Positions 1,555 through 61,806 of a DNA stretch of 64,000 bases are shown one piece after another. Within the stretch, counting starts at the first letter, position 1. The number at the start of each line of letters is the position of its first letter. This stretch comes from an uncultured Lentisphaerota bacterium (GTDB lineage: Bacteria > Verrucomicrobiota > Kiritimatiellia > CAIQIC01): positions 1-64,000 of the forward strand of contig CAISWQ010000044.1 in assembly GCA_903889245.1 (NCBI GenBank), written 5' to 3'. Made by a program: the position numbers and the translations under genes. The notes beneath the pieces were generated by a model. The model did no database searches, was not told where the DNA came from, and was given only the letters and a program-made list of their open reading frames with translations.

Positions 1555-1660
1555 GTTCCAAGCCTTGGGGAAAGAGCCGCCCTGCCCAAGGCCGGGAATT
1601 TCCCCCGTGAGATTTTCCAAATCCTGGAAAAACCCGCCGTGACTTTTCCAAGCTTTGGAC
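1555..1660. repeat. CCAAGG palindrome array, four units
   Basis: Core centres lie at about 1563, 1591, 1622 and 1653, giving spacings of 28, 31 and 31 bp. Cores are CCAAGCCTTGG, CCAAGGCCGGG, CCAAATCCTGG and CCAAGCTTTGG. The array fills most of the gap between the epimerase-like gene and the next start codon, and its last unit ends 15 bp before ATG 1676. Confidence 0.85.
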
Positions 1661-1675
1661 GTAAGACATGCGGCC

Positions 1676-7606: not shown

Positions 7607-7720
7607 CTTTTCCAAGGATTGGAAAACCAAACGCCCATTTTCCCAGGCATTGGAAAATCTCACGGAATTTTTTCCAAGCCTTGGAAATTTTCCGCTGATT
7701 TTTTCCAAGGCTTGGAAAAC
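7607..7720. repeat. CCAAGG palindrome array, four units exactly 31 bp apart
   Basis: Core centres lie at 7617, 7648, 7679 and 7710, so all three intervals are exactly 31 bp. Cores are CCAAGGATTGG, CCAGGCATTGG, CCAAGCCTTGG and CCAAGGCTTGG, each flanked by T-rich left and A-rich right arms. The spacers between units are unrelated to one another. The array spans the whole gap from the esterase stop to the Shine-Dalgarno of the next sulfatase gene. Confidence 0.95.
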
Positions 7721-15421: not shown

Positions 15422-17824
15422 ATGCGCGTACCGATTAGCTGGCTGAAGGACTATGTGGAGTTCGCGGATTCGCCGCAGGGGCTGGCGGCGAAGCTGACGT
15501 TCTCGGGCCTCGAAGTCGAGGGTATTGAGACGATCGGCTGCCACGCGCCCGGTGTGGTCGTCGGCGAAATTCTCGCCATCGAGCGCCACCCGAACGCGGA
15601 CAAGCTGACGCTTTGCACCGTCAACCATGGTGCGGGCCAGCTCGTAGTGGTCTGCGGCGCGCCGAATGTGAAGGTGGGCTTGAAGGCGCCGTTTGCGCCC
15701 TCCGGCGTGACGCTGCCGAACGGGCTGACGCTGAAGAAGGCCAAAATCCGCGGCGTCTTCTCCGAAGGCATGCTCTGCGCGCCCGACGAGCTTAGCCTCT
15801 CGAAGGACCACGCGGGCCTGCTCGAACTCGACGCCAAGTGGGCGCCCGGCACGCCCATCGCCGAGGTGCTCGGCGCGCCGGAGACCGTGCTCGAACTGGA
15901 AGTGACGCCGAACCGCCCGGACTGCTTGAGCCTGATCGGCATCGCGCGCGAAGTCGCCGCGCTCTACGGCACCAAGCTCCGCAAGCCGGAGCTCAAACTC
16001 GCCGAGGCGGGCGCGCCCGTCACCGATCTGACGCGCGTCGCGATCGAGGACGCCGAGGGCTGTCCGCGCTACACGGCGCGCATCCTGACTGGCGTGAAGA
16101 TCGGCCCCTCGCCCGCGTGGATGCAGAAGCGCCTTGAGCTCGCCGGCGTCCGCGCGATCAACAACATCGTGGACATCACCAACTACGTCATGCTCGAGTG
16201 CGGCCATCCGCTGCACGCCTTCGACCAGACCCTGCTCGCAGAGGGCCGCATCGTCGTCCGCCGCGCGAGCGCCGGCGAAAAAATGAAAACGCTCGATGGC
16301 ATCGAGCGCGAGCTGACGCCGGCCACGTTGGTCATTGCCGATGCCGCGCAGTCCGTCGCCCTCGCGGGCGTCATGGGCGGCGGCAACAGCGAGATCCGCG
16401 CCACTACCGCGACCGTGCTGCTGGAGAGCGCCACGTTCAAGCCGGCCGATATCCGCACGACCGCGCGCCGCCTCGGAATTTCCACGGAATCTTCCTACCG
16501 CTTCGAGCGCGGCGTGGATGCCGCCACGGTCGAGTGGGCGAGCCGCCGGGCCGCGATGCTAATGGGCGAACTCGCCGGCGCAACCTGCACGCCGGGCGTG
16601 ATTGACGTGGCCGCGCCCGCCGCCGCGCCGCGCAAGCTGCAGTGCCGCTATGATTATGTCCGCGAGCGCACCGGCGTGGATATTTCCAATGAGAAGATCA
16701 CCGCGATTTTCCAGGGTTTGGAAATTTCCACCCGCGATCTGGGCGCGGCGTGTGAAGTGGAAATCCCGACGTTCCGGGGCGATTTGGAGCGCGAGATTGA
16801 TCTCGTGGAGGAGATCGCACGCATCCACGGGCTCGACCAGATTTCCGCACCGAGTCCTCGTGCGATCGTCGTCGCCGGCGTGGATGACCGCCCGGCGCAG
16901 GCGATGGCCGCGTGCCGCCGCGCGCTGGTGGGCCTCGGCCTGCGCGAGACGATGAACTACAGCTTCCTCTCCGAGAAATTGCTCAATCTGTTCGACCCGG
17001 CCGCCGCGCCGCGCCGCGTCGTGATTCCGAACCCGGTCAGCGCCGACCACGCGATCTTGCGCGACTCGCTCGTGCCGCAGCTCGTCGAGACGCTCGGCCG
17101 CAACCACGCGCGGCAGGTTGCCGAGGCGACGCTCTTTGAGATCGGCCGCGTGTTCGCGCTCGACGCCAGTGGCGCGATGATCGAGGAGGATCGTCTTGCC
17201 ATCGGGCTGATGGGCCCGGTCGGCCGCACCGGCCTCGACAAACATCTGCCGGTGAAGGGCGATGAAATTTTCCTCTGGCTCAAGGGCCTCTGGGAGGCGC
17301 TCGCCGCCGCGCTCGGCTTGAGGAAGGCTGGCTGCCGTGCGGCAGAGCGCGCGTGGGGTGAACCGGGCTGCACGGTCGGCCTGTTCGTCGCCGGCATGGA
17401 AATCGGCGCGCTGGGTATCATCAAGCACAGCCTCGCGCGCGAGTGGCGCCTGACCGCGCCGGTCGCCGTGCTGGAGGCGCAGCTCGCTCCGCTGCTGGTG
17501 GATGTTTTTGCCGTGCCGCGCGCCGCGCCGATCGCGCCGTTCCCCGCCGTGCGACGCGACATGGCGCTTGTCGCCAGCGATGCGCTCAAGCACGAGGACG
17601 TCGTCCGCGTCGTGCGCCGCGCCGCGCCGCCGGAACTGGAAAACGTGGAATTGTTCGATATCTTCCACGGCGGCAACCTCGGCGCCGGGCGCAAGAGCAT
17701 GGCCTACGCATGCACCTATCGCGCGGCAGATCGAACCTTGACAGACGAGGATGCGAACCGGTACCATGCTGGCGTCAAAGAAGCCGTGCGGCGTGAGCTG
17801 AACGTGGAGATTCGCGAAGGCTGA
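15422..17824 (+). CDS. pheT: Phenylalanine-tRNA ligase beta subunit
   Basis: This 800-residue protein is the beta chain of cytoplasmic phenylalanyl-tRNA synthetase, which charges tRNA-Phe as an alpha2beta2 tetramer. The N-terminus (MRVPISWLKDYVEF) leads into the tRNA-binding domain (GEILAIERHPNADKLTLCTV), then the B3/B4 editing region, a B5 domain (VEIPTFRGDLEREIDLVEEI), the class II-like core, and a C-terminal anticodon-binding domain (PFPAVRRDMALV). The length matches the family. pheS, often directly upstream, is absent from the window, so the alpha subunit gene has been separated. A ribosome site lies just upstream of ATG 15422. The downstream neighbourhood (6S RNA, folate cyclo-ligase) is a familiar bacterial context. 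Confidence 0.97.
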   Translation: MRVPISWLKDYVEFADSPQGLAAKLTFSGLEVEGIETIGCHAPGVVVGEILAIERHPNADKLTLCTVNHGAGQLVVVCGAPNVKVGLKAPFAPSGVTLPNGLTLKKAKIRGVFSEGMLCAPDELSLSKDHAGLLELDAKWAPGTPIAEVLGAPETVLELEVTPNRPDCLSLIGIAREVAALYGTKLRKPELKLAEAGAPVTDLTRVAIEDAEGCPRYTARILTGVKIGPSPAWMQKRLELAGVRAINNIVDITNYVMLECGHPLHAFDQTLLAEGRIVVRRASAGEKMKTLDGIERELTPATLVIADAAQSVALAGVMGGGNSEIRATTATVLLESATFKPADIRTTARRLGISTESSYRFERGVDAATVEWASRRAAMLMGELAGATCTPGVIDVAAPAAAPRKLQCRYDYVRERTGVDISNEKITAIFQGLEISTRDLGAACEVEIPTFRGDLEREIDLVEEIARIHGLDQISAPSPRAIVVAGVDDRPAQAMAACRRALVGLGLRETMNYSFLSEKLLNLFDPAAAPRRVVIPNPVSADHAILRDSLVPQLVETLGRNHARQVAEATLFEIGRVFALDASGAMIEEDRLAIGLMGPVGRTGLDKHLPVKGDEIFLWLKGLWEALAAALGLRKAGCRAAERAWGEPGCTVGLFVAGMEIGALGIIKHSLAREWRLTAPVAVLEAQLAPLLVDVFAVPRAAPIAPFPAVRRDMALVASDALKHEDVVRVVRRAAPPELENVELFDIFHGGNLGAGRKSMAYACTYRAADRTLTDEDANRYHAGVKEAVRRELNVEIREG

Positions 17825-18126: not shown

Positions 18127-18133
18127 CGAAGAT

Positions 18134-18308
18134 ACCCTGCCTTGTGCGTGACGGGGCCGATTCTTCTGACCCTACATGGTTAATTCCATTGGGAGTTCAG
18201 GTCCGGTGGCGGCTGCAAGCTTCATTGCTTCGCAAAACCCATCGGCAGAACACCCACCTTGTGAAAACAAGGTTCAGAAGACCAATGCCCTAGACGGCAA
18301 GGCGGGGT
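18134..18308 (+). ncRNA. ssrS: 6S RNA
   Basis: 6S RNA binds the sigma-70 RNA polymerase by imitating an open promoter. The fold can be read directly. The closing stem pairs ACCC (18134-18137) with GGGT (18305-18308), GCCTTG (18139-18144) with CAAGGC (18298-18303), and GGGC with GCCC (18287-18290). TCTTCTGA (18162-18169) pairs with TCAGAAGA (18274-18281). A large central bubble follows, with a small hairpin on its 3' side (ACCTTG 18256-18261 with CAAGGT 18268-18273). The apical arm begins CCGGTGG/CCATCGG. The 3' end runs into a T tract. About 175 nt and a place near pheT and the folate cyclo-ligase gene both fit. The ends are approximate. Confidence 0.8.
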
Positions 18309-18318
18309 TTTTTCTTTC
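18298..18318 (+). terminator. 3' end and intrinsic terminator of the 6S RNA
   Basis: The 3' strand of the closing stem (CAAGGC and GGGG) is followed at once by a T-rich run (GTTTTTTCTTTC), as expected where the 6S transcript ends. Confidence 0.6.
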
Positions 18319-19875: not shown

Positions 19876-20511
19876 ATGAAGCTGAAGCGGCAAAAAAATA
19901 TGTTACGGAAAAAAGCGTACGCGGCCCGCGCGCGGCTGTCGCCGGCGGCGGTGGCGGCGAAGAGCGCGCGGATCGCGGAGCGCGTGCTGGGGCTGGCGGC
20001 ATTCCGCCGCGCGCAAGTTGTCGCCACCTATCTTGCGCTGGCCGACGAGGTGCAGACCGCGCCACTCATCGCCGCGTGCCATGCGGCGCGCAAGCGCGTC
20101 TGCACGCCGGTGTTCGACGCGGTGACAAAGAGCTATCGCTTTGCCTGGCTGACGCCGCGGACGAAGCTGCGGGCCGCGCACTTCGGCGTGCTGGAGCCGG
20201 TGCGGCCGCGTCGCGTGGCGGCGCCGGCCAGGATTGAGCTGGCGCTGGTGCCGGGCGTGGCGTTCGACCGCGCGGGTCACCGGCTCGGCCACGGCCGCGG
20301 CTACTTCGACCAGTTGCTGGCCGGCCTCGCCGCCTGCAAGGTCGGGCTGGCCTTCGCGGCGCAGGTGGTGGCGCGCGTACCGCACGCGGCGCACGATGTC
20401 AGGATGGATGCGGTGGTGACCGAAGGAAAAGTTTTCCAGGGCTTGGAAAAAATCCGTCCGGATTTTCCAAGCCTTGGACAACCCGCGCGATGCTGGCGTG
20501 GGACTACATAA
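19876..20511 (+). CDS. 5-formyltetrahydrofolate cyclo-ligase with repeat-derived tail
   Basis: This enzyme converts 5-formyltetrahydrofolate to 5,10-methenyltetrahydrofolate using ATP, in the cytoplasm. The N-terminal basic helix (MLRKKAYAARARLSP), ADEVQTAPLI, VLEPVRP, ALVPGVAFDRAGHRLGHGRGYFD and MDAVVTEG are family blocks. I chose ATG 19876; ATG 19900 is possible. The conserved part ends near MDAVVTEGK. The remaining residues (VFQGLEK, DFPSLGQ and a short end) are coded by two palindrome units at 20431-20480, so the tail came from a repeat. It lies 13 bp after rarA and is part of the block around the 6S RNA, as in many bacteria. Confidence 0.88.
   Translation: MKLKRQKNMLRKKAYAARARLSPAAVAAKSARIAERVLGLAAFRRAQVVATYLALADEVQTAPLIAACHAARKRVCTPVFDAVTKSYRFAWLTPRTKLRAAHFGVLEPVRPRRVAAPARIELALVPGVAFDRAGHRLGHGRGYFDQLLAGLAACKVGLAFAAQVVARVPHAAHDVRMDAVVTEGKVFQGLEKIRPDFPSLGQPARCWRGTT
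20431..20480. repeat. CCAAGG palindrome array, two units, inside a coding 3' end
   Basis: Cores CCAGGGCTTGG (centre 20441) and CCAAGCCTTGG (centre 20472) are exactly 31 bp apart. Both lie within the 3' end of the folate cyclo-ligase gene and are translated as FQGLEK and FPSLGQ. Confidence 0.9.
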
Positions 20512-26134: not shown

Positions 26135-26219
26135 TTTCTTGTGGGCGGGAGCTCCAGCTCCCGCGTCGGTTTGTTGAGGGCTTGGGTTCGCGGGAGCTGG
26201 AGCTCCCGCCCACAAGAAA
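26135..26219. repeat. Perfect 31-bp inverted repeat in a divergent intergenic region
   Basis: The left arm 26135-26165 (starts TTTCTTGTGGGCGGGAGC) and right arm 26189-26219 (ends CCCGCCCACAAGAAA) are perfect reverse complements over 31 bp. They flank a 23-nt loop. Each arm contains its own near-palindrome GGGAGCTCCAGCTCCC. It lies between the start codons of two divergent genes, so it is not a normal terminator. Confidence 0.92.
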
Positions 26220-26233
26220 AGCGACTGGCGCGG

Positions 26234-26348
26234 GTTTTCCAGGGATTGGAAAAGGAGGGCCCCGGTTTTTCCAAGGATTGGAAGATTTCGCGGAAATTTT
26301 TCCGAGGCTTGGAAAATTGCGCGCGTTTTTTTCCAAGGCTGGGAAAGC
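26234..26348. repeat. CCAAGG palindrome array, four units
   Basis: Core centres lie at 26244, 26276, 26307 and 26338, giving spacings of 32, 31 and 31 bp. Cores are CCAGGGATTGG, CCAAGGATTGG, CCGAGGCTTGG and CCAAGGCTGGG. The array lies upstream of the HtrA promoter in a 410-bp divergent gap that holds no gene. Confidence 0.92.
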
Positions 26349-29565: not shown

Positions 29566-31143
29566 ATGACAGACCAGAAAACTCCCCAGTCATCTGACAA
29601 AAATTTCCAAGGCTTGGAAAACGGCAGCGATGCGGCTTCCAAGGCTTGGAAAACCGAGGCGCCCGCCGGCGAGAAATCCACGGCGCAAGGCCGCAAGCTC
29701 AAGTTCGCCATCACGCTCAACACCGGTATCGCACTGGTGCTGGCGGCGGCGCTCTTCGGCATGGTCAACTACGCGAGCTTCCGCCACTACAAGCGGCTCG
29801 ACGTCAGCAAGAACAAGCTCTACCAGCTCTCCGACAAATCGCTCGGGCTGCTCAAGAGCCTGACGAACGCGATTGACGTGGTGGTATTCTTCCAGCCCGG
29901 CCAGGAGGTCTTTGAGGACGTGGACAACCTGCTGAAGGAATATCAGGACGCCTCGAAGCACATCCGCGTGCAGAAGATTGATCCCGACCGCGACCTGGCG
30001 AAGACGGAATTGCTGGCCAAGAAATACCAGGTCAGCCGCGCCAACACGGTCGTCTTCGACAACAACGGCCGGACGAAGTTCGTCTCGGCCGAGGACATCG
30101 TGGACATGGATTATTCCGGGATGCAGATGGGCATGCCGCCGCGCAAGACCGGTTTCAAGGGCGAGCAGGCGTTCTCCTCGGCCATCATGACGATCACGCA
30201 GGCGAAGTCGCCGACGATCTACTTCCTGCAAGGCCACGGCGAGCACGATCCCGACAGCTTTGACCGAACGAAGGGCTACTCCGGCCTCGCCCGCGAGGTC
30301 AAACGCGACAACGTCACGATCAAGAAGCTGACGCTCGGCGACCAGCAGAAGGCGGTCCCGGCCGACTGCGATGCTCTGATCGTCGCCGGCCCGCAGAAGA
30401 AGTTCGCGCCGGCCGAGGTCGAGCAGGTGCGCCAGTTCCTTTCCAAGAACGGCCGCGCGCTGTTCCTGCTGGACGCGCTGACCGACACCGGCCTCTCGCC
30501 GCTGCTCAAGGAGTGGGGCGTGGCCGTGGGCGATGACGTGGTCGTGGACCCCTCGCGCACGATGAGCGGCAACGAGCTATTCGTGACGCAATACGAGCGC
30601 CATCCGATTACCGAGAAACTCGAAGGCGTGAACTCGATCCTCTATCTGCCGCGCTCGATCACCGCGGTCGAGGAAGCCGCGCCCGGCCCGGAGGCCGCGC
30701 CAGACAAGCCGCGCGTCACCACGCTGATCAAATGTACCGCCGAGGGCTGGGGCGAAACCACGCCCGACCAGAACCCGGTGCGCTTCGATGCCAACCTGGA
30801 CCACAAGGGCCCGCTCGGCGTCGCCGCGGCGGTTGAGAAGGGCAGCGCGCCCGGCGCGCTCGATACGCAGATCAAGCCGGTGCGCCTCGTCGTATTCGGC
30901 GACTCCGGCTTCCTTGCCAACAGCGCGGTGGGCGCGGGCGGCGGGCTGGACCTGTTCCAGAGTTCGCTGAATTGGTTGCTCGACCGCAAAGAGTTGATGG
31001 CGATTGCGCCGAAGACGATCGCCGAGTACCGGCTGGTGCTCGACGCCCGGCAGTTGAATGCGCTGGGTTGGGCCGTGATCGGCGGGCTGCCGGCGCTGAT
31101 CGCGATTTTGGGTATTGCCGTCTGGCTGCGGAGGAGGGCGTGA
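29566..31143 (+). CDS. GldG-like ABC system auxiliary protein with repeat-encoded N-terminus
   Basis: This 525-residue protein pairs with the permease. It has one N-terminal transmembrane helix (about 49-68, LNTGIALVLAAALFGMVNYA), a large periplasmic part of the Gldg/ABC_transp_aux type (YFLQGHGEHDPDS, FLSKNGRALFLLDALTD) and a C-terminal helix (LGWAVIGGLPALIAILGIAV). Residues about 10-31 before the first helix are coded by two palindrome units (NFQGLEN and SKAWKT). The rest of the cytoplasmic tail is low in complexity, so the repeat appears to have entered a tolerant region. The DUF4340 gene starts 1 bp after the stop. Confidence 0.88.
   Translation: MTDQKTPQSSDKNFQGLENGSDAASKAWKTEAPAGEKSTAQGRKLKFAITLNTGIALVLAAALFGMVNYASFRHYKRLDVSKNKLYQLSDKSLGLLKSLTNAIDVVVFFQPGQEVFEDVDNLLKEYQDASKHIRVQKIDPDRDLAKTELLAKKYQVSRANTVVFDNNGRTKFVSAEDIVDMDYSGMQMGMPPRKTGFKGEQAFSSAIMTITQAKSPTIYFLQGHGEHDPDSFDRTKGYSGLAREVKRDNVTIKKLTLGDQQKAVPADCDALIVAGPQKKFAPAEVEQVRQFLSKNGRALFLLDALTDTGLSPLLKEWGVAVGDDVVVDPSRTMSGNELFVTQYERHPITEKLEGVNSILYLPRSITAVEEAAPGPEAAPDKPRVTTLIKCTAEGWGETTPDQNPVRFDANLDHKGPLGVAAAVEKGSAPGALDTQIKPVRLVVFGDSGFLANSAVGAGGGLDLFQSSLNWLLDRKELMAIAPKTIAEYRLVLDARQLNALGWAVIGGLPALIAILGIAVWLRRRA
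29602..29655. repeat. CCAAGG palindrome array, two units, inside a coding 5' end
   Basis: Cores CCAAGGCTTGG at centres 29612 and 29644 are 32 bp apart and identical. They are read in two different frames, giving FQGLE and SKAWK. Both lie between the start codon and the first membrane helix of the GldG-like protein. Confidence 0.92.
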
Positions 31144-42659: not shown

Positions 42660-42746
42660 GGAGTGGTGGAGTACTGGAGTGATGGAGTAATGAGCGGCAA
42701 ACCTTCCGATCCCCAGCTCTCCAGCACTCCCATACTCCAGCACTCC
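42660..42746. repeat. GGAGTNNT 8-bp-period inverted repeat element, copy 2
   Basis: The left arm is GGAGTGGT, GGAGTACT, GGAGTGAT and GGAGTAAT (42660-42691). The right arm is AGCTCTCC, AGCACTCC, CATACTCC and AGCACTCC (42715-42746). The start codon of the glycosyltransferase gene (42690) uses the last two bases of the left arm, and the right arm is translated as SSTPILQHSS. Confidence 0.88.
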
Positions 42747-43688
42747 AGTCCCCCCATCCGCATCCTCGTGCTGCGCGGCGGCGCGATCGGCGACTTCATC
42801 GTCACACTGCCCGCGCTGCGCAAATTGCGCGACCGCTGGCCGCAGGCGCACATCGAGTTGATCGGCTACCCGCACGTCGCCATGCTCGCGCGCGCCGCCG
42901 GGCTCGTGAACCACGTTGAGTCGCTCGACAAGGCGGAGATCGCGCGCTTCTTTTCCGCCAGCCCGAAATTCACCGAGGCGCAGTGCGACTATCTCCGCTC
43001 GTTCCACTTCGTCGTCACCTATCTGCACGACCCCGATGGCCTCGTCCGCGAAAATCTCACCTCCGCCGGCGCGCGGCAGGTGCTCTACGGCTCGCCGCTG
43101 ATCACCGCCGGCCACGCCGTGGAGGCGCTGCTCAAACCACTGGAGACCTTCGCGCTCTATGCCGAGGGCGTGGAGCAACCGCGCCTCGCGCTCGCGGCGG
43201 AGCAGCTCGCGTGGGGCCGCGACTGGCTCGCCGCGCGCGGCTTGGGCGGGAAGAAAATGCTCGCGCTCCATCCCGGCAGCGGCAGCCCGCGCAAGAACTG
43301 GCCGGTGGAAAACTTCATCGCGCTCGCGCGCCGGTTGCCGCGCGGCGTTGCGCCGCTGCTCGTGCTCGGCGAGGCCGATGCCGAACTCATCGCGCCGCTT
43401 GCGCGCGAGCTGCCCAAGGTGCCGCGCCTCGCGGGTTGTTCGCTTCTGGAAGTGGCGTCGGTGCTCGCGCATGGCGCCGCTTATCTCGGCAACGACTCCG
43501 GCATCACGCACCTGGCCGCCGCGCTCGGCCGGCCGGTGGTCGCGCTGTTCGGGCCGAGCAACCCGGAGCACTGGGCGCCGCGCGGCCCGCGCGTGACGCT
43601 GCTCCAGGCGCCCGACGGCAAGACCGCCGAACTCAAACTGGCTGACGTCGCCGCCGCCGTTTTCCAAGCCTTGGAAATTTCCGGCTGA
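42690..43688 (+). CDS. Glycosyltransferase family 9 (heptosyltransferase-like)
   Basis: The 332-residue protein resembles ADP-heptose:LPS heptosyltransferases (GT9, GT-B fold) that build the lipopolysaccharide core on the inner side of the inner membrane. Family blocks are IRILVLRGGAIGDFIVTLPA, LHPGSGSPRKNWP and ANDSGITHLAAA-like GNDSGITHLAAALGRP, followed by ALFGPSNPEHWAP. The family-like part begins at IRILVLRGG; the first 22 residues come from a GGAGTNNT repeat that also supplies the start codon. The C-terminus (VFQALEISG) is coded by a palindrome unit. Both termini are therefore repeat-derived, an unusual case. The donor sugar is not assignable. Confidence 0.88.
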   Translation: MSGKPSDPQLSSTPILQHSSPPIRILVLRGGAIGDFIVTLPALRKLRDRWPQAHIELIGYPHVAMLARAAGLVNHVESLDKAEIARFFSASPKFTEAQCDYLRSFHFVVTYLHDPDGLVRENLTSAGARQVLYGSPLITAGHAVEALLKPLETFALYAEGVEQPRLALAAEQLAWGRDWLAARGLGGKKMLALHPGSGSPRKNWPVENFIALARRLPRGVAPLLVLGEADAELIAPLARELPKVPRLAGCSLLEVASVLAHGAAYLGNDSGITHLAAALGRPVVALFGPSNPEHWAPRGPRVTLLQAPDGKTAELKLADVAAAVFQALEISG

Positions 43689-43711
43689 TTTTTTCCAAGG
43701 CTTGGAAAAAC
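43659..43711. repeat. CCAAGG palindrome array, two units, between convergent genes
   Basis: Cores CCAAGCCTTGG (centre 43669) and CCAAGGCTTGG (centre 43700) are 31 bp apart. The first unit is coding and gives FQALEI at the end of the glycosyltransferase; the second lies between the stops of two convergent genes, with T and A runs on either side that could serve as a two-way terminator. Confidence 0.92.
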
Positions 43712-47809: not shown

Positions 47810-49771
47810 TCAGAAATTCCAGCGCCGCGGCTGGCCGACGCCCTTAAGCTCGATCCAGTCCACCTCCACCGGCTGCTGGTGCGCCGGCAGATAAAGCCGC
47901 AGGATGCCGAGCGGGCCTTGCGCCGGCAGGTCCACGGTGATGGTCTGCCAGTCGCCGGGCGCGAGCGTGAACGGCACCGGCGTCGCCTCGGTCTGCTTCT
48001 GGGCCGGCGCGAGCCACGTCACCTTGCCCTTGCCGCCGCCGCGCACGCGCAACGTGAGTACCGCCGGGCCGGCGGTCCCCGCGCTGACGCCGAGGAACGG
48101 CGCATCGCCGCTGCCCCGCAGGGTGACGATGCCATCCTTCACCGTGGCCTGGCAGTTACGCGCCTTCCAGCCTTGCAGCTTCGGATCGCTTTCGTCCTTG
48201 GCCGGCGCCTTGGCTTTCGCCTTGGCCTTGGGCCTCTGCTTGCCCTCGTCCTCCGGCCGGTACTTGGCGGGATCGAACGCCGGGTTCGGGACGGGCACGA
48301 CGGCCTTGGTCTCGGCGAGGAACTTCTCGATGAGTGCATCGAGTTCCTTCACGCGCTCCGGTTCCTGGGCGGCGAGGTTGTTCTTTTCGCCCATGTCGTC
48401 GCGCAGGTTGAAGAGCAGATAACGGTGCGCGCCTTTTTCGCCGACGTGGAAAATGCGGATGAGCTTCCAATCGTCGCGTTCGATGGCGACGCCGGGCGGC
48501 AGCCAGTCGGGCACGCCGGGATCGTGCGGGAAGAACTGGCAGATGGCCTTGCCGGCGAGCGCCTCGCCCTTCAGCGCGGGCAGGATGCTGTGACCATCGA
48601 AGCGCTGGCCGGGCACGGGCTGCAGCCCGAGTACGTCGAGCAGCGTGGGATAATAGTCCTCGCTCTGGATCAGCGCGTCGCTGCGCGAGCCGGGCGGCGT
48701 GACGCCCGGCAGGACGACGACGCCCGGCACGCGCGTGCCGCCCTCGAACAGCGTGGCCTTGCCGCCGCGCAGCGGCCGGTTGCTGGTGGGCGGGACGCCG
48801 TCCACCTCGTTATACATGTTGCCGCCGTTATCGGCGGTGAAGACGATGAGCGTGCGGTCGGCGAGCTTCAGCCGGTCGAGCGTGTCGAGCAGCGTGCCGA
48901 CGGCGTCATCCATGCTCTCGACCATCGCGGCATAGGTGGGGCAGCGCTGCGCGTCGGCGGGATTGACGCGCGCGCGATGCTTCTCGATCAGCGCCCGCTT
49001 CGCATCGAACGGCGCGTGGACGCTGAACATCCAGTAGTTCAGATAGAACGGGCGGTCCTTGTGCTGCTCCATCCATTTGACCGCTTCCTGCGCCATGCGA
49101 TCCTCGATGTGCTGGTTCGGCTCGCCGGGATCGGCATCGAAGTCCGGGAACTTCCACGGCGCCACGTAGCTGCCCGCCGGGCCGGGGCCGGGCCAGTGCG
49201 GTAGATCCACATCGAAGCCCTGCTGCAGCGGCGAGTAGGGCTCCGCGCCCAGATGCCATTTGCCGAAGTGCGCCGTCGCATAGCCCGCGTCCTTAAGCGT
49301 CTCCGCCAGCGTGCGGTACTCGGTTTTCAGCCGCGTCACCGAGACCGGCATGATCGTCTTCTTGTCCGCCGGCGCGCCCTTGGCCAGCTCCGCCGCGAGG
49401 ATCACCTTCGCCTCGTGGCAGCCGGGCACGGTGATGCCCGTGCGCGCCGGACTCAAGCCCGTCATGATGGCCGAGCGCGTCGGCGAGCAGAGCGGGCTGG
49501 CCGAATGGGCGCGCGTAAAGACCATGCCGCGTCGGGCGAGCCGGTCGAGGTTCGGCGTCCGGTAGAACTGCGTGTGGCCATAGAGCGTCGTATCCGCCCA
49601 GCCAAGATCGTCGGCGAGGATGAAGACGACGTTGAGCTTCTTGTTTTCCAAGGGTTGGAAACTGGAGGGTGCGGTTTTTCCAGCCGAGCCTTGCGAGACG
49701 GGCAGCCCTTGGCTGCCAACCATTGGAAAAAGTCCCAGCGACAGGCAGACGGCGAGAAGAGCTTTGTTCAT
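47810..49771 (-). CDS. Secreted sulfatase with C-terminal beta-sandwich-like domain
   Basis: The 653-residue protein has a signal peptide ([20 protein letters not shown]), then a repeat-derived linker ([10 protein letters not shown]) before [19 protein letters not shown]. The signature [11 protein letters not shown] holds Cys95, the formylglycine precursor. HFGKWHLG and [12 protein letters not shown] complete the active site. After a Lys/Ala-rich linker ([15 protein letters not shown]) comes an extra domain (about 550-653) of beta strands ([38 protein letters not shown]), perhaps a carbohydrate-binding module. ATG 49771 overlaps the stop of the rhamnosidase gene by 4 bp. The pair is coupled, implying action on the same glycan. 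Confidence 0.88.
49643..49732. repeat. CCAAGG palindrome units inside a sulfatase signal-peptide region
   Basis: A good core CCAAGGGTTGG is centred at 49653, a decayed one near 49685 and CCAACCATTGG at 49721. Between them GGCAGCC-CTT-GGCTGCC (49701-49717) forms a hairpin. All are within the first 45 codons of the sulfatase, between the signal peptide and the catalytic domain. Confidence 0.7.
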
Positions 49772-56327: not shown

Positions 56328-56441
56328 GTTTCCAAGGATTGGAAACCGGGAGGAGCGTTTTTCCCAAGGCTTGGACAATTTCGGCCCACACTTTTCCAAG
56401 CCTTGGAAAATTTCACCCCGTTTTTTCCAAGGCTTGGAAAT
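56328..56441. repeat. CCAAGG palindrome array, four units, between convergent genes
   Basis: Core centres lie at 56337, 56369, 56401 and 56432, giving spacings of 32, 32 and 31 bp. Cores are CCAAGGATTGG, CCAAGGCTTGG, CCAAGCCTTGG and CCAAGGCTTGG. The last unit reaches the stop codon of the sialidase-fold gene on the minus strand. Confidence 0.95.
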
Positions 56442-58753: not shown

Positions 58754-60163
58754 TCACTTCTTCGTGGTCGCTTCGAGTTGGTTTGGGACGGGCGTGAGCG
58801 TGGCGCGATGGCGCGCGACGGCCGCCGTAATCTGCGCGATGACGTCGGGATGATCGGCGGCGACGTTGAAGGATTCACCGGGGTCGGCTTCGAGGTCGAA
58901 CAGCAGCGGCGGCTCGTGGGTCTCCGGCTTGGGCGCGCCATAGGCGGCCTGCGTGATGAAGTGCGCCTTCCACTGGCCGCGCCGCGCCGCAAACAGCCGT
59001 GTGCCGCGGTAATAGCAGAACACGTCGCGCTCGACGCTGCCCGCGGCGGTCAACAGCGGCGTGATGTCGCGGCCATCCAGCGGCCGGTCGCTGGGCGGCT
59101 GCGCGCCGGCCCACGTGGCGCAGGTGGTGAACAGGTCCATCGTCACGGCCAGCTCGCGGCAGGTGCCGCCGGCAGGAATTTTACCGGGCATCCACGCGAT
59201 GCCGGGCACGCGCATCCCGCCTTCCCACGTCGAGCCTTTGCCATCGCGCAACAGGCCCGCCGAGCCGCCCGCCAGCCCCCGGATCAGCCACGGCCCGTTG
59301 TCGCTCGTGAAGAAGACGAACGTGTTCCGGTCGCGGCCCGTCTCGCGCAACGTTTCGAGCACGCGGCCGACGCTCCAGTCAATTTCCTCGACCACGTCGC
59401 CGTAACGGCCGCGCGGACTTTTGCCACGGAACTGTTCCGAGGCGAAGATGGGCGTGTGCGGGAACGTGTGCGGGAAGTAGAGGAAAAACGGGCCGTCCTT
59501 TTGCTCGCGGATGAACCGCACGGCCTGCTCGGTATAGCGGCGCGTGAGCATGGTCTGGTCGGCGGGCTGCTCGATCAACTTCTCGCCCTCAAAGAGCGGC
59601 GCGTTGAACCACTTCGCTTCAGGATTGGTGCTGCTGTGGACCTCGCGCGGGATGCCGGGCACGGGGTCCATGTCGTTGGAGTGCGGCAGGCCGAAGCAGA
59701 AGTCGAAACCGTGATGGCGCGGATGGCCGGCGGGGTTGTTCGCCCAGACGCCGAGGTGCCACTTGCCGATGCAGCCGGTCGCGTAGCCGCGCTGCTTGAG
59801 CAGCTCCGCGAGAGTGATCTCGCCCTCGGGCAGGTGGCCGGTGGAGACGTTGCGGAGTACGCGGAACTGGTCGTGCGCCATGCCGCTACGGACCGGATAG
59901 CGCCCCGTCAGCAGCGCCGCGCGGCTCGGCGTGCAGACCTCCGCCGCCGAGTAGAAGCTGGTGAAGCGCAGCCCCTCCCGCGCCATGCGGTCGAGGTGCG
60001 GCGTGCGGATGGTCGGATGACCATAGCAGCCGAGGTCGCCGTAGCCGAGGTCGTCGGCGAGGATGATGATGATGTTCGGTTTCTGCGGCGGCGCGCCCGC
60101 GGCCGGCCACGCGGCCAGCGGCGCAAGCAGCAACGCGGTGAGGATGGCGCAGGTGCGTTTCAT
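58754..60163 (-). CDS. Secreted sulfatase (S1 family)
   Basis: A 469-residue type I sulfatase: signal peptide ([23 protein letters not shown]), ADD at residues 36-38, [19 protein letters not shown] with Cys77 as the formylglycine precursor, IGKWHLG, and TSDNGPWLI. The [10 protein letters not shown] motif is that of arylsulfatase A-like enzymes. The upstream in-frame residues (from 60241) are palindrome-coded shadow and are rejected. Its stop is followed without a gap by the alpha/beta hydrolase gene. A palindrome array of two units separates it from the next sulfatase gene upstream. Confidence 0.92.
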
Positions 60164-60188
60164 GTGGTGGCTTTCCTTTCCTGATTCA

Positions 60189-60238
60189 GTTCCAAGGCTT
60201 GGAAAAACTGGTGGGGCCGTCTTCCAATCCTTGGACTT
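60189..60238. repeat. CCAAGG palindrome array, two units
   Basis: Cores CCAAGGCTTGG (centre 60197) and CCAATCCTTGG (centre 60229) are 32 bp apart. They lie in the 74-bp gap between two minus-strand sulfatase genes and reach the stop codon of the upstream one. Confidence 0.9.
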
Positions 60239-61806
60239 CATTTTGTCGGCGCTCCGTTGGCCAGAAATTCTTCCTTGGTGATGCGGCCGTCGCCGTTGGC
60301 GTCGAGCTTCTTGAAGCGGGCCTCGCCGGCGGCCTGATCGCTGCCCGCGAGGGTACTCATAAATTCGCCCTGGTCAATCACGCCGTCCTGGTTCTTGTCG
60401 CGCTGGCGGAAACGCGCCATGCGGTCTTCGGAGGGTTTTGGGGCTGAAGCGCCGTCCTCTTTTTGCTTCTTCTTCTTTTGTGAGTTCGGCGTCAGGCCCT
60501 CGCGCGGCTGCGGCGCGGGCAGCGTGGCGAGGATGGCGGCGAAACGGGCGCGGGCGGCTTTGACTTCAGGATCGGCGGATGCGGTCACATCCTTGTAGCC
60601 GCTGCCGTCGTGGCTTTCGCCGCAGTCGAAAAACTTCTCACCCTTGCCGCCCTTCGCGATTTCCAGCAGCCAGCGCGCGTCGCGCAGGACACGGCCATCG
60701 TCGAGATGGCTATAAATCCAGTCGCGATGCTGCGCCTTCTCGCCGCGCAACACGGGGCCGAGGCTGTGGCCGTCGAAGGGGCGGTCCTGCGGCAGCGTCG
60801 CGCCGGAGAACTCGGCGAGCGTCGGCATGATGTCGGTGAGATCGGCCACGGCGCGCGAGACGACGCCGCGCTGGACGCCGGGGCCGCGGATAAGGCACGG
60901 CACGCGCGCGCCGAGCTCGGTGGTCTGGCCTTTGCCGGAGCCGCCGGTGCCGTTGTCGCCGATGAAGATGACGAGCGTGTGCTCGTCGAGGCCCTCGGCC
61001 TTTAGCGCGGCGAAAAGTTTGCCCATGAGATGGTCGAGATATTCCAAGTTCGACTTGAACGACGCCGGCCAGCGTGCGCCGGGCTTGGCCGGGTCGGGCG
61101 TTTCCAAGTGCGGGTTGTGGGTGAGCACGGAGGTGTAATAGACGAAGAACGGCGCGGCCTTGTGGCGGCGCGCGAACTCGATGACGAAGTCGTTGAACAG
61201 GTCGGGCCCATAGTCGCCGGGCTTCGTCGGCAGATACTTGCCGTTCTCGACGAGACTCGGATGCCAGTAGCGGCAGGCGTTGCCCTTATCGCCGCCGCCC
61301 TCGTGCGCGGGATGCTTGACGCCGGGTGGCAGGTTGTGGTCATAGGCCCACATCCGGTATTCATCGAAACCCGCGTCGTGGACGAGCGTGGGCAGTTCGC
61401 CAGAGAGCTGCCACTTGCCGGCGAGCGCGGTGGCGTAACCGCGCGACTTGAGCAGATCGGCGTGGGTGAAGTGGTGGCCGATCTGCGCTTGCGGCGAATG
61501 CGGCGCGGGCCGGAAGGCCGGATCCTGCATGCCGAGGAAGCCATTGTGGAAACCGTATTGTCCGGTCATCAGCGCGACGCGCGTCGGCGTACAGAGCGGG
61601 TTGGCGAAGAACGTCTCGAACCGCATGCCTTCAGCGGCCATGCGATCGAGATGCGGCGTCTTGTGCTCTTTGTGGCCGTAGCACGCGAGTTCCTTCGCGC
61701 CCAGATCATCGGCGAGGATGAGGATGATGTTGGGTTTGGGCTCTGCCGCCTCGGCGGGCGGGAGGAACCAGAGGCCGGCGAGGAGGGCCGCAAAGATTGT
61801 TTTCAT
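60238..61806 (-). CDS. Secreted sulfatase with C-terminal EF-hand pair
   Basis: The 522-residue protein has a signal peptide, ADD at residues 32-34, and [14 protein letters not shown] with Cys72 as the formylglycine precursor. AGKWQLSG replaces GKWHLG, and IGDNGTGG is the late metal site. After a Lys-rich linker ([12 protein letters not shown]) come two EF-hand loops: [12 protein letters not shown] (470-481) and [12 protein letters not shown] (502-513). Each keeps Asp, Asp/Asn, Asp, Gly, Ile and Glu at calcium positions. A calcium-binding pair on a sulfatase is uncommon and may anchor or stabilise it. ATG 61806 is preferred over GTG 61812. Confidence 0.9.

Follow-up and report, generated by a model that had tools for sequence, protein, structure and literature searches.

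Uptake sequences (DUS in Neisseriaceae, USS in Pasteurellaceae) occur in hundreds to thousands of copies per genome, are relatively evenly distributed, are under-represented in coding sequence, form lineage dialects, and are spread by drive (PMC3630211, PMC7811141). HIP1 of cyanobacteria is an abundant short palindrome with lineage variants that are gained and lost (PMC4390886). REP and BIME sequences are small high-copy palindromes found between genes and sometimes inside them (PMC3733652), while Rickettsia palindromic elements are inserted sequences of about 150 bp (PMC10969869). The palindromic boxes of NrdR lie 15–16 bp apart, which is three DNA turns from centre to centre, and are bound cooperatively by two dimers (PMC12051234).

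The window analysed here (64,000 nucleotides from an uncultured Kiritimatiellota bacterium) contains a 17 bp palindrome (TTTCCAAGSCTTGGAAA, here termed the unit), which usually is flanked by one extra T and A. Like uptake sequences, units are very abundant, evenly distributed, and depleted in coding sequence, and they have lineage dialects with a constant core (TTTCCA/TGGAAA). However, uptake sequences are not known to form palindromic arrays with a three-turn period, and mean spacing is about 5 kb here compared to 1 kb for uptake sequences. As for NrdR boxes, unit centres are three turns apart (30–32 bp), but NrdR boxes are found at a few RNR promoters while the arrays described here are genome-wide, have up to five units, and mostly lie near stop codons; the NrdR boxes also differ in sequence from the unit. 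HIP1 is an 8-mer tied to methyltransferases and is not arrayed, in contrast to the units. Compared to REP/BIME, the units have no tag, no clear link to RAYTs, a fixed helical spacing, non-repeating spacers, and an in-place origin. They resemble Rickettsia palindromic elements in being found in frame inside genes, where they are predicted to be translated, but are only 17–21 bp long, have unrelated spacers, are mostly intergenic, and often are present without insertion. TTTCC/GGAAA halves as in the unit also form the palindromic binding site of Noc from Bacillus, which we regard as a lead only: Noc sites have two bases between the halves (seven here), number about 70, and are not arrayed. A literature search for the unit sequence and for the class yielded nothing relevant, and within the library searched the class name was not linked to palindromes.

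The genome which contains the window (G000) is a MAG with 125 contigs (5.26 Mb); array statistics rest on 823 kb. It was compared with three congeneric species (G001, G002, and G003), with a representative of the sister genus (G004), and with further MAGs labelled Lentisphaerae, Verrucomicrobia, or Kiritimatiellaeota. Genes were called with a custom hexamer script, and some N-terminal units are probably located 5' of the real start codon. The window contains 25 units with up to three mismatches, while 0.09 are expected from dinucleotide shuffles (Table 1). In the complete G000 sequence, 1518 units have at most one mismatch, and none was obtained with a reversed-pattern control. The half-sites TTCC/GGAA are 95–100% constant (823 kb), and the flank profile shows T/A beside the core, followed by a GC-rich spacer; 17–21 bp are constrained per unit. 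Overall, small arrays of the unit number about a thousand in the genome, one per ~5,000 bases.

Table 1. Units and arrays of units in the window, with gene context and orthologous state where available
Feature	Position	Strand	Remarks
Degenerate intergenic array	1555..1661		Units at 1555, 1614, and 1645, with 3 mismatches each
Intergenic array, 4 units	7609..7718		Spacing 31/31/31; flanked by two sulfatase-type genes; orthologous array: 5 units (G002), 1 unit (G003)
Unit inside pheT (B5 domain)	16708..16724	+	Reads IFQGLE
2 units, 31 bp apart	20433–20449, 20464–20480	+	Tail of 5-FTHF cyclo-ligase (gene 19876–20511); read FQGLE/FPSLG
Intergenic array, 4 units	26236..26346		Spacing 32/31/31; upstream of gldA/F/G-like operon; missing from G002 and G003
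2 units, 32 bp apart	29604–29620, 29636–29652	+	N-terminus of GldG-like protein (ABC_transp_aux; gene 29566–31143); read FQGLE/ASKAWK
2 units, 31 bp apart	43661..43708	+	First unit (43661–43677) in tail of GT9 glycosyltransferase (42690–43688), reads FQALE; second unit 3' of stop
Unit in linker behind sulfatase signal peptide	49645..49661	–	Gene 47810–49771, minus strand; reads FQPLE; a degenerate unit at about 49714–49730 also overlaps the signal peptide
Intergenic array, 4 units	56329..56440		Spacing 32/32/31; convergent gap
Lone unit	60189..60205		Probably 5' of sulfatase gene; called N-terminal extension of 58754–60241 is doubtful

Three further features of the window were noted. A second repeat family is represented at 26141–26213 (length about 75 bp; a variable loop is enclosed by inverted arms GGGAGCTGGAGCTCCCGCCCAC); arm matches number 38 in 823 kb of G000 and 2 in 961 kb of G002, and many matching copies exist on both strands in G001 and G003. 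A third repeat (TCTCGCAAGGCTCGGCTGGAAA plus flank) is found at 49677–49707 in the coding linker of the sulfatase, adjoining the palindrome unit, with one copy in the G000 sequence read and 10 matches in G002. A 6S RNA (RF00013, 88.9 bits) is encoded at 18131–18312 between pheT and the gene preceding the 5-FTHF cyclo-ligase, an arrangement reminiscent of the ssrS-ygfA neighbourhood of Escherichia coli.

Units are arranged in helical phase. In the 823 kb of G000, 217 of the 232 neighbours within 260 bp are at a unit-to-unit distance of 31 bp (138 cases) or 32 bp (79 cases), with only 15 at any other distance; a centre spacing of 30–32 bp corresponds to three turns of DNA. Arrays consist of 2–5 units, and 57 units are single. 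The spacing has a lineage preference, being almost always 32 bp in G001, 31 bp in G007, and mixed in G000. A strict 31.5 bp alternation is not claimed, as this is weak in G000 (p 0.017) and lineages differ. Along the array, the central base is unevenly distributed (823 kb of G000): G is favoured in the left unit and C in the right one, and the order G-then-C is found 83 times compared to 41 times for C-then-G.

In contrast to the units, the spacers are unrelated. All 230 spacers of G000 differ from each other, and the likeness of adjacent spacers (0.298) equals that of random ones (0.301). Tandem duplication as the main route of array growth was therefore rejected, yet genome G043 has true tandem copies (locus L204, 1501–1734; eight units at exact 31 bp steps, with at least the first three spacers identical). 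In direct orientation, adjacent units of G000 resemble each other slightly more than shuffled pairs do (14.37 vs. 14.17 of 17 positions, reached in 0 of 2000 shuffles), which hints at some duplication. Substitutions within units are almost always one-sided (437, compared to 14 both-sided compensatory ones), and the palindrome is thus not preserved for the sake of base pairing; RNA pairing is unlikely. Nor is there excess complementarity between adjacent units of G000 relative to shuffled pairs.

Arrays are spaced more evenly along the chromosome than at random. Units are 25-fold denser between genes (2.31 per kb) than in predicted genes (0.092 per kb; 703 kb of G000). Arrays are present in 52% of the convergent, 31% of the tandem, and 28% of the divergent gaps of G000, and within tandem gaps they are close to the stop codon (median distance 27 bp vs. 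69.5 bp expected). Their mean spacing is 5.1 kb, with a coefficient of variation (CV) of 0.53 compared to 0.90 for random placement (823 kb of G000). Only 10.5% of the neighbouring arrays are less than 2 kb apart (31% under random placement), and not one of the 102 distances separating multi-unit arrays falls below 1 kb (13% expected). Even array spacing is also seen in G002, and it persists against a null model which retains the real gaps and their lengths (below 2 kb: 6.3% vs. 19% in G000, 1.6% vs. 13% in G002). Arrays inside genes are at 2.9 kb from the nearest other array, whereas this distance is 1.5 kb when coding positions are picked at random (p 0.0006; the same comparison in G002 has n = 5 and p 0.09). 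Genic units thus occur where the grid would have a hole, which we propose as the reason for their presence in genes.

A first-pass annotation had described the units as coding at four loci (GldG-like protein, cyclo-ligase, glycosyltransferase, and sulfatase). At all four, 17 bp units were confirmed in frame inside predicted genes, and the exact unit indeed lacks a stop codon in any of the six frames; genic units are predicted, from the sequence, to be translated with the gene. The 31/32 bp phasing and a fifth coding unit, that in pheT, were absent from this annotation; the pheT unit is common to all four congeneric species. In-frame units at protein ends are exceptional, given the density of units between genes. 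Several apparent N-terminal units (60189; NuoE of locus L031) probably reflect start codons that were called too far upstream.

The proposal that units land in genes like Rickettsia palindromic elements survives only in part when proteins are aligned with their orthologues. Net gains are found in the photolyase, where a linker has grown by 87 nt and 5 units compared to G002, and in ThiL, where a loop with units is longer than in G004, G005, G007, and G014. In contrast, the glycosyltransferase, PheT, and NuoE retain their length without insertion. The glycosyltransferase tail reads VGQTLM in the unit-poor G003 where the window has VFQALE. The PheT unit is in place in G001–G003, and a second degenerate unit follows 21 bp downstream in G001 and G002. 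In NuoE, the unit is exact in G001, where it covers xxALEKKLG, has one mismatch in G000, and is poorer in G002 and G003, all proteins being of equal length. An amidohydrolase has two units exactly 31 bp apart with a one-residue gap relative to PDB 4dlf. The units in PheT, NuoE, and amidohydrolase sit on native helices, with no insertion or that one-residue gap.

At the cyclo-ligase, the unit was captured rather than inserted: the array is intergenic in G001–G003, and the gene reads into this old intergenic array because a deletion of ~43 bp in the window removed the native stop codon. The GldG-like units are common to G001 and G002 and are eroded in G003, which has an N-terminus of the same length. 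Among G000, G002, and G003 this N-terminus shows substitutions only, and G001 has 7 fewer residues in front of the units. Compared with the sister genus (G004), the unit-bearing end has about 15 additional residues, so that it may have begun as an insertion; residues 1–40 are predicted to be disordered, with low confidence, from a five-sequence alignment. Judged from these alignments, the unit is written over existing codons without insertion at two of the four loci (glycosyltransferase and GldG-like protein) and in PheT, NuoE, and amidohydrolase. Membership among Rickettsia palindromic elements was thus rejected, since most of the genic units examined are without insertion and only photolyase and ThiL fit.

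Array positions are conserved between species: of 20 array loci, about 13 are common to G000 and G002. Paired units are 88% identical and spacers 50%, the value for units being biased upward because units are recognised by their consensus. G003 has 20 near-exact units per Mb compared to 294 in G000 (15-fold fewer), while degenerate units are nearly as frequent (162 vs. 219 per Mb). To judge from these counts, the pattern in G003 looks like the loss of whatever maintains the sites.

Arrays of 2–5 units of the form TTTCCA-N5-TGGAAA with unrelated spacers occur class-wide, in many families of Kiritimatiellota. The exact form is found 75–1363 times per genome in families f1–f4, f10, f15, f19, f20, f25, and part of f8, but only 0–8 times in f12, f21, f26, f28, and the other classes of the phylum (control patterns: 0–3 per genome). 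Outside the class, unit counts in the rest of the phylum are near chance. The TTTCCA/TGGAAA core is constant while the inner five bases depend on the lineage (AGSCT in G000, ATSAT in G009 and G013, and, for example, TTTCCATAGCGTGGAAA as one of the forms in G008). When a paired pattern was allowed to have a distance of 18–48 bp, every pair was 30–32 bp apart among the genomes listed; family f4 also uses a spacing of 22 bp besides 30–31 bp. Copy numbers may swing within a single genus: in genus g41, G094 and G126 have 5 copies while G190 and G251 have about 620, and in another case G016 has 19 and G011 252. A phage origin was discarded, the phased pair being present in only three IMG/VR contigs.

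With the sequence form, phasing, even spacing, positional conservation, erosion, and in-place origin at several genes as observations, we consider it probable that the palindromes are DNA recognition sites and neither protein modules nor ordinary mobile elements. The photolyase and ThiL insertions, the direct-orientation likeness of adjacent units, and the exact tandem copies in G043 argue against this. A miniature mobile element of the REP/BIME or another type, with a transposase copying the palindrome to new places including genes, would account for the high copy number, the intergenic preference, the intragenic copies, and the gain or loss between congeners (photolyase, array at 26236). It is nevertheless improbable: spacers never repeat, arrays are evenly spaced, and units are found on native codons without insertion, sometimes two of them exactly 31 bp apart. 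Furthermore, the flank profile has no GTAG or CGTC tag beside the palindrome, and RAYT counts (Pfam Y1_Tnp matches) are only weakly correlated with the number of units (rho 0.30, p 0.012, 71 genomes; when restricted to the 60 genomes that contain Y1_Tnp, rho 0.16, p 0.22). G000 itself has two weak Y1_Tnp matches, and Y1_Tnp is missing from G181 despite its 112 units. Another conceivable origin is as HIP-type palindromes made via a DNA methyltransferase and mismatch repair, the outer part of the unit containing CCAN5TGG. The units are lineage-specific palindromes that supplant one another, a behaviour shared with HIP1 and alternate HIPs (PMC4390886), but phased arrays with 17–21 constrained bp and kilobase spacing are unlike HIP1, and the A/T of CCA/TGG varies more than the outer TT/AA; we consider this origin highly improbable. 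The same low likelihood is assigned to RNA or cruciform hairpins which act as terminators or mRNA stabilisers. A long hairpin (z –4.0 to –5.2) can form from two adjacent units, but simply because both are palindromes. Arrays hug stop codons and somewhat prefer convergent gaps, and the higher occupancy of the latter leaves room for a terminator-like part, yet divergent gaps, which need no terminator, are occupied about as often as tandem ones. Compensatory changes are absent within or between units, an RNA hairpin does not require strict helical spacing, and no Rfam families were found at arrays.

Among functions of a DNA recognition site, even spacing, avoidance of coding sequence, dialects, and lineage-specific gain and loss characterise uptake sequences under molecular drive (PMC3630211, PMC7811141). 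We tentatively suggest that the units may serve as an uptake-sequence-like label of self DNA which is spread by such drive. Sites which organise the chromosome (nucleoid, domains, or segregation) and are kept by selection rather than by uptake-type drive account for most of the facts that uptake explains; the even spacing of ~5 kb, the arrays of 2–5 units, the indifference to gene content, and the fill-in inside genes agree with them. Loss or near-loss within single genera (G094 and G126; G016) is fast for a structural role, however, and we regard chromosome organisation as somewhat unlikely, with uptake-type drive slightly ahead of it.

The one-sided constraint on two half-sites, the same-face spacing, and the multi-site arrays lead us to propose dimers that bind side by side, in the manner of NrdR tetramers on paired boxes with three-turn spacing (PMC12051234); a binder protein, its cooperativity, and its function are what we infer from the DNA. 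A putative dimeric DNA-binding protein would bind each TTTCCA-N5-TGGAAA unit, and neighbouring dimers, on the same helix face and three turns apart, would bind together, which in this proposal is why sites occur as arrays of 2–5. The arrays recur along the chromosome about every 5 kb with near-regular spacing, for the most part in intergenic sequence next to stop codons, and are present within genes where intergenic arrays are distant. New units would arise from point changes over similar sequence and from in-phase gains, be kept by selection or drive, and erode when upkeep is lost, as may have happened in G003; translation within genes would be a tolerated side effect. It is possible, although less likely than not, that this amounts to a class-wide chromosome system of Kiritimatiellota, with a protein that assembles on three-turn-phased arrays every ~5 kb, with site and protein co-evolving by lineage, and with sites being written into genes which lack nearby intergenic ones.

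If true, a bacterial class would have a genome-wide grid of phased binding arrays that is apparently undescribed and that would serve, as a novel system, either the recognition of self DNA or the structure of the chromosome. Given the natural losses in G003, in G016, and, within genus g41, in G094 and G126, the binder should be findable through genome comparison. Sites acting at the DNA level would shape protein sequence through point changes, with no element having landed in the gene.
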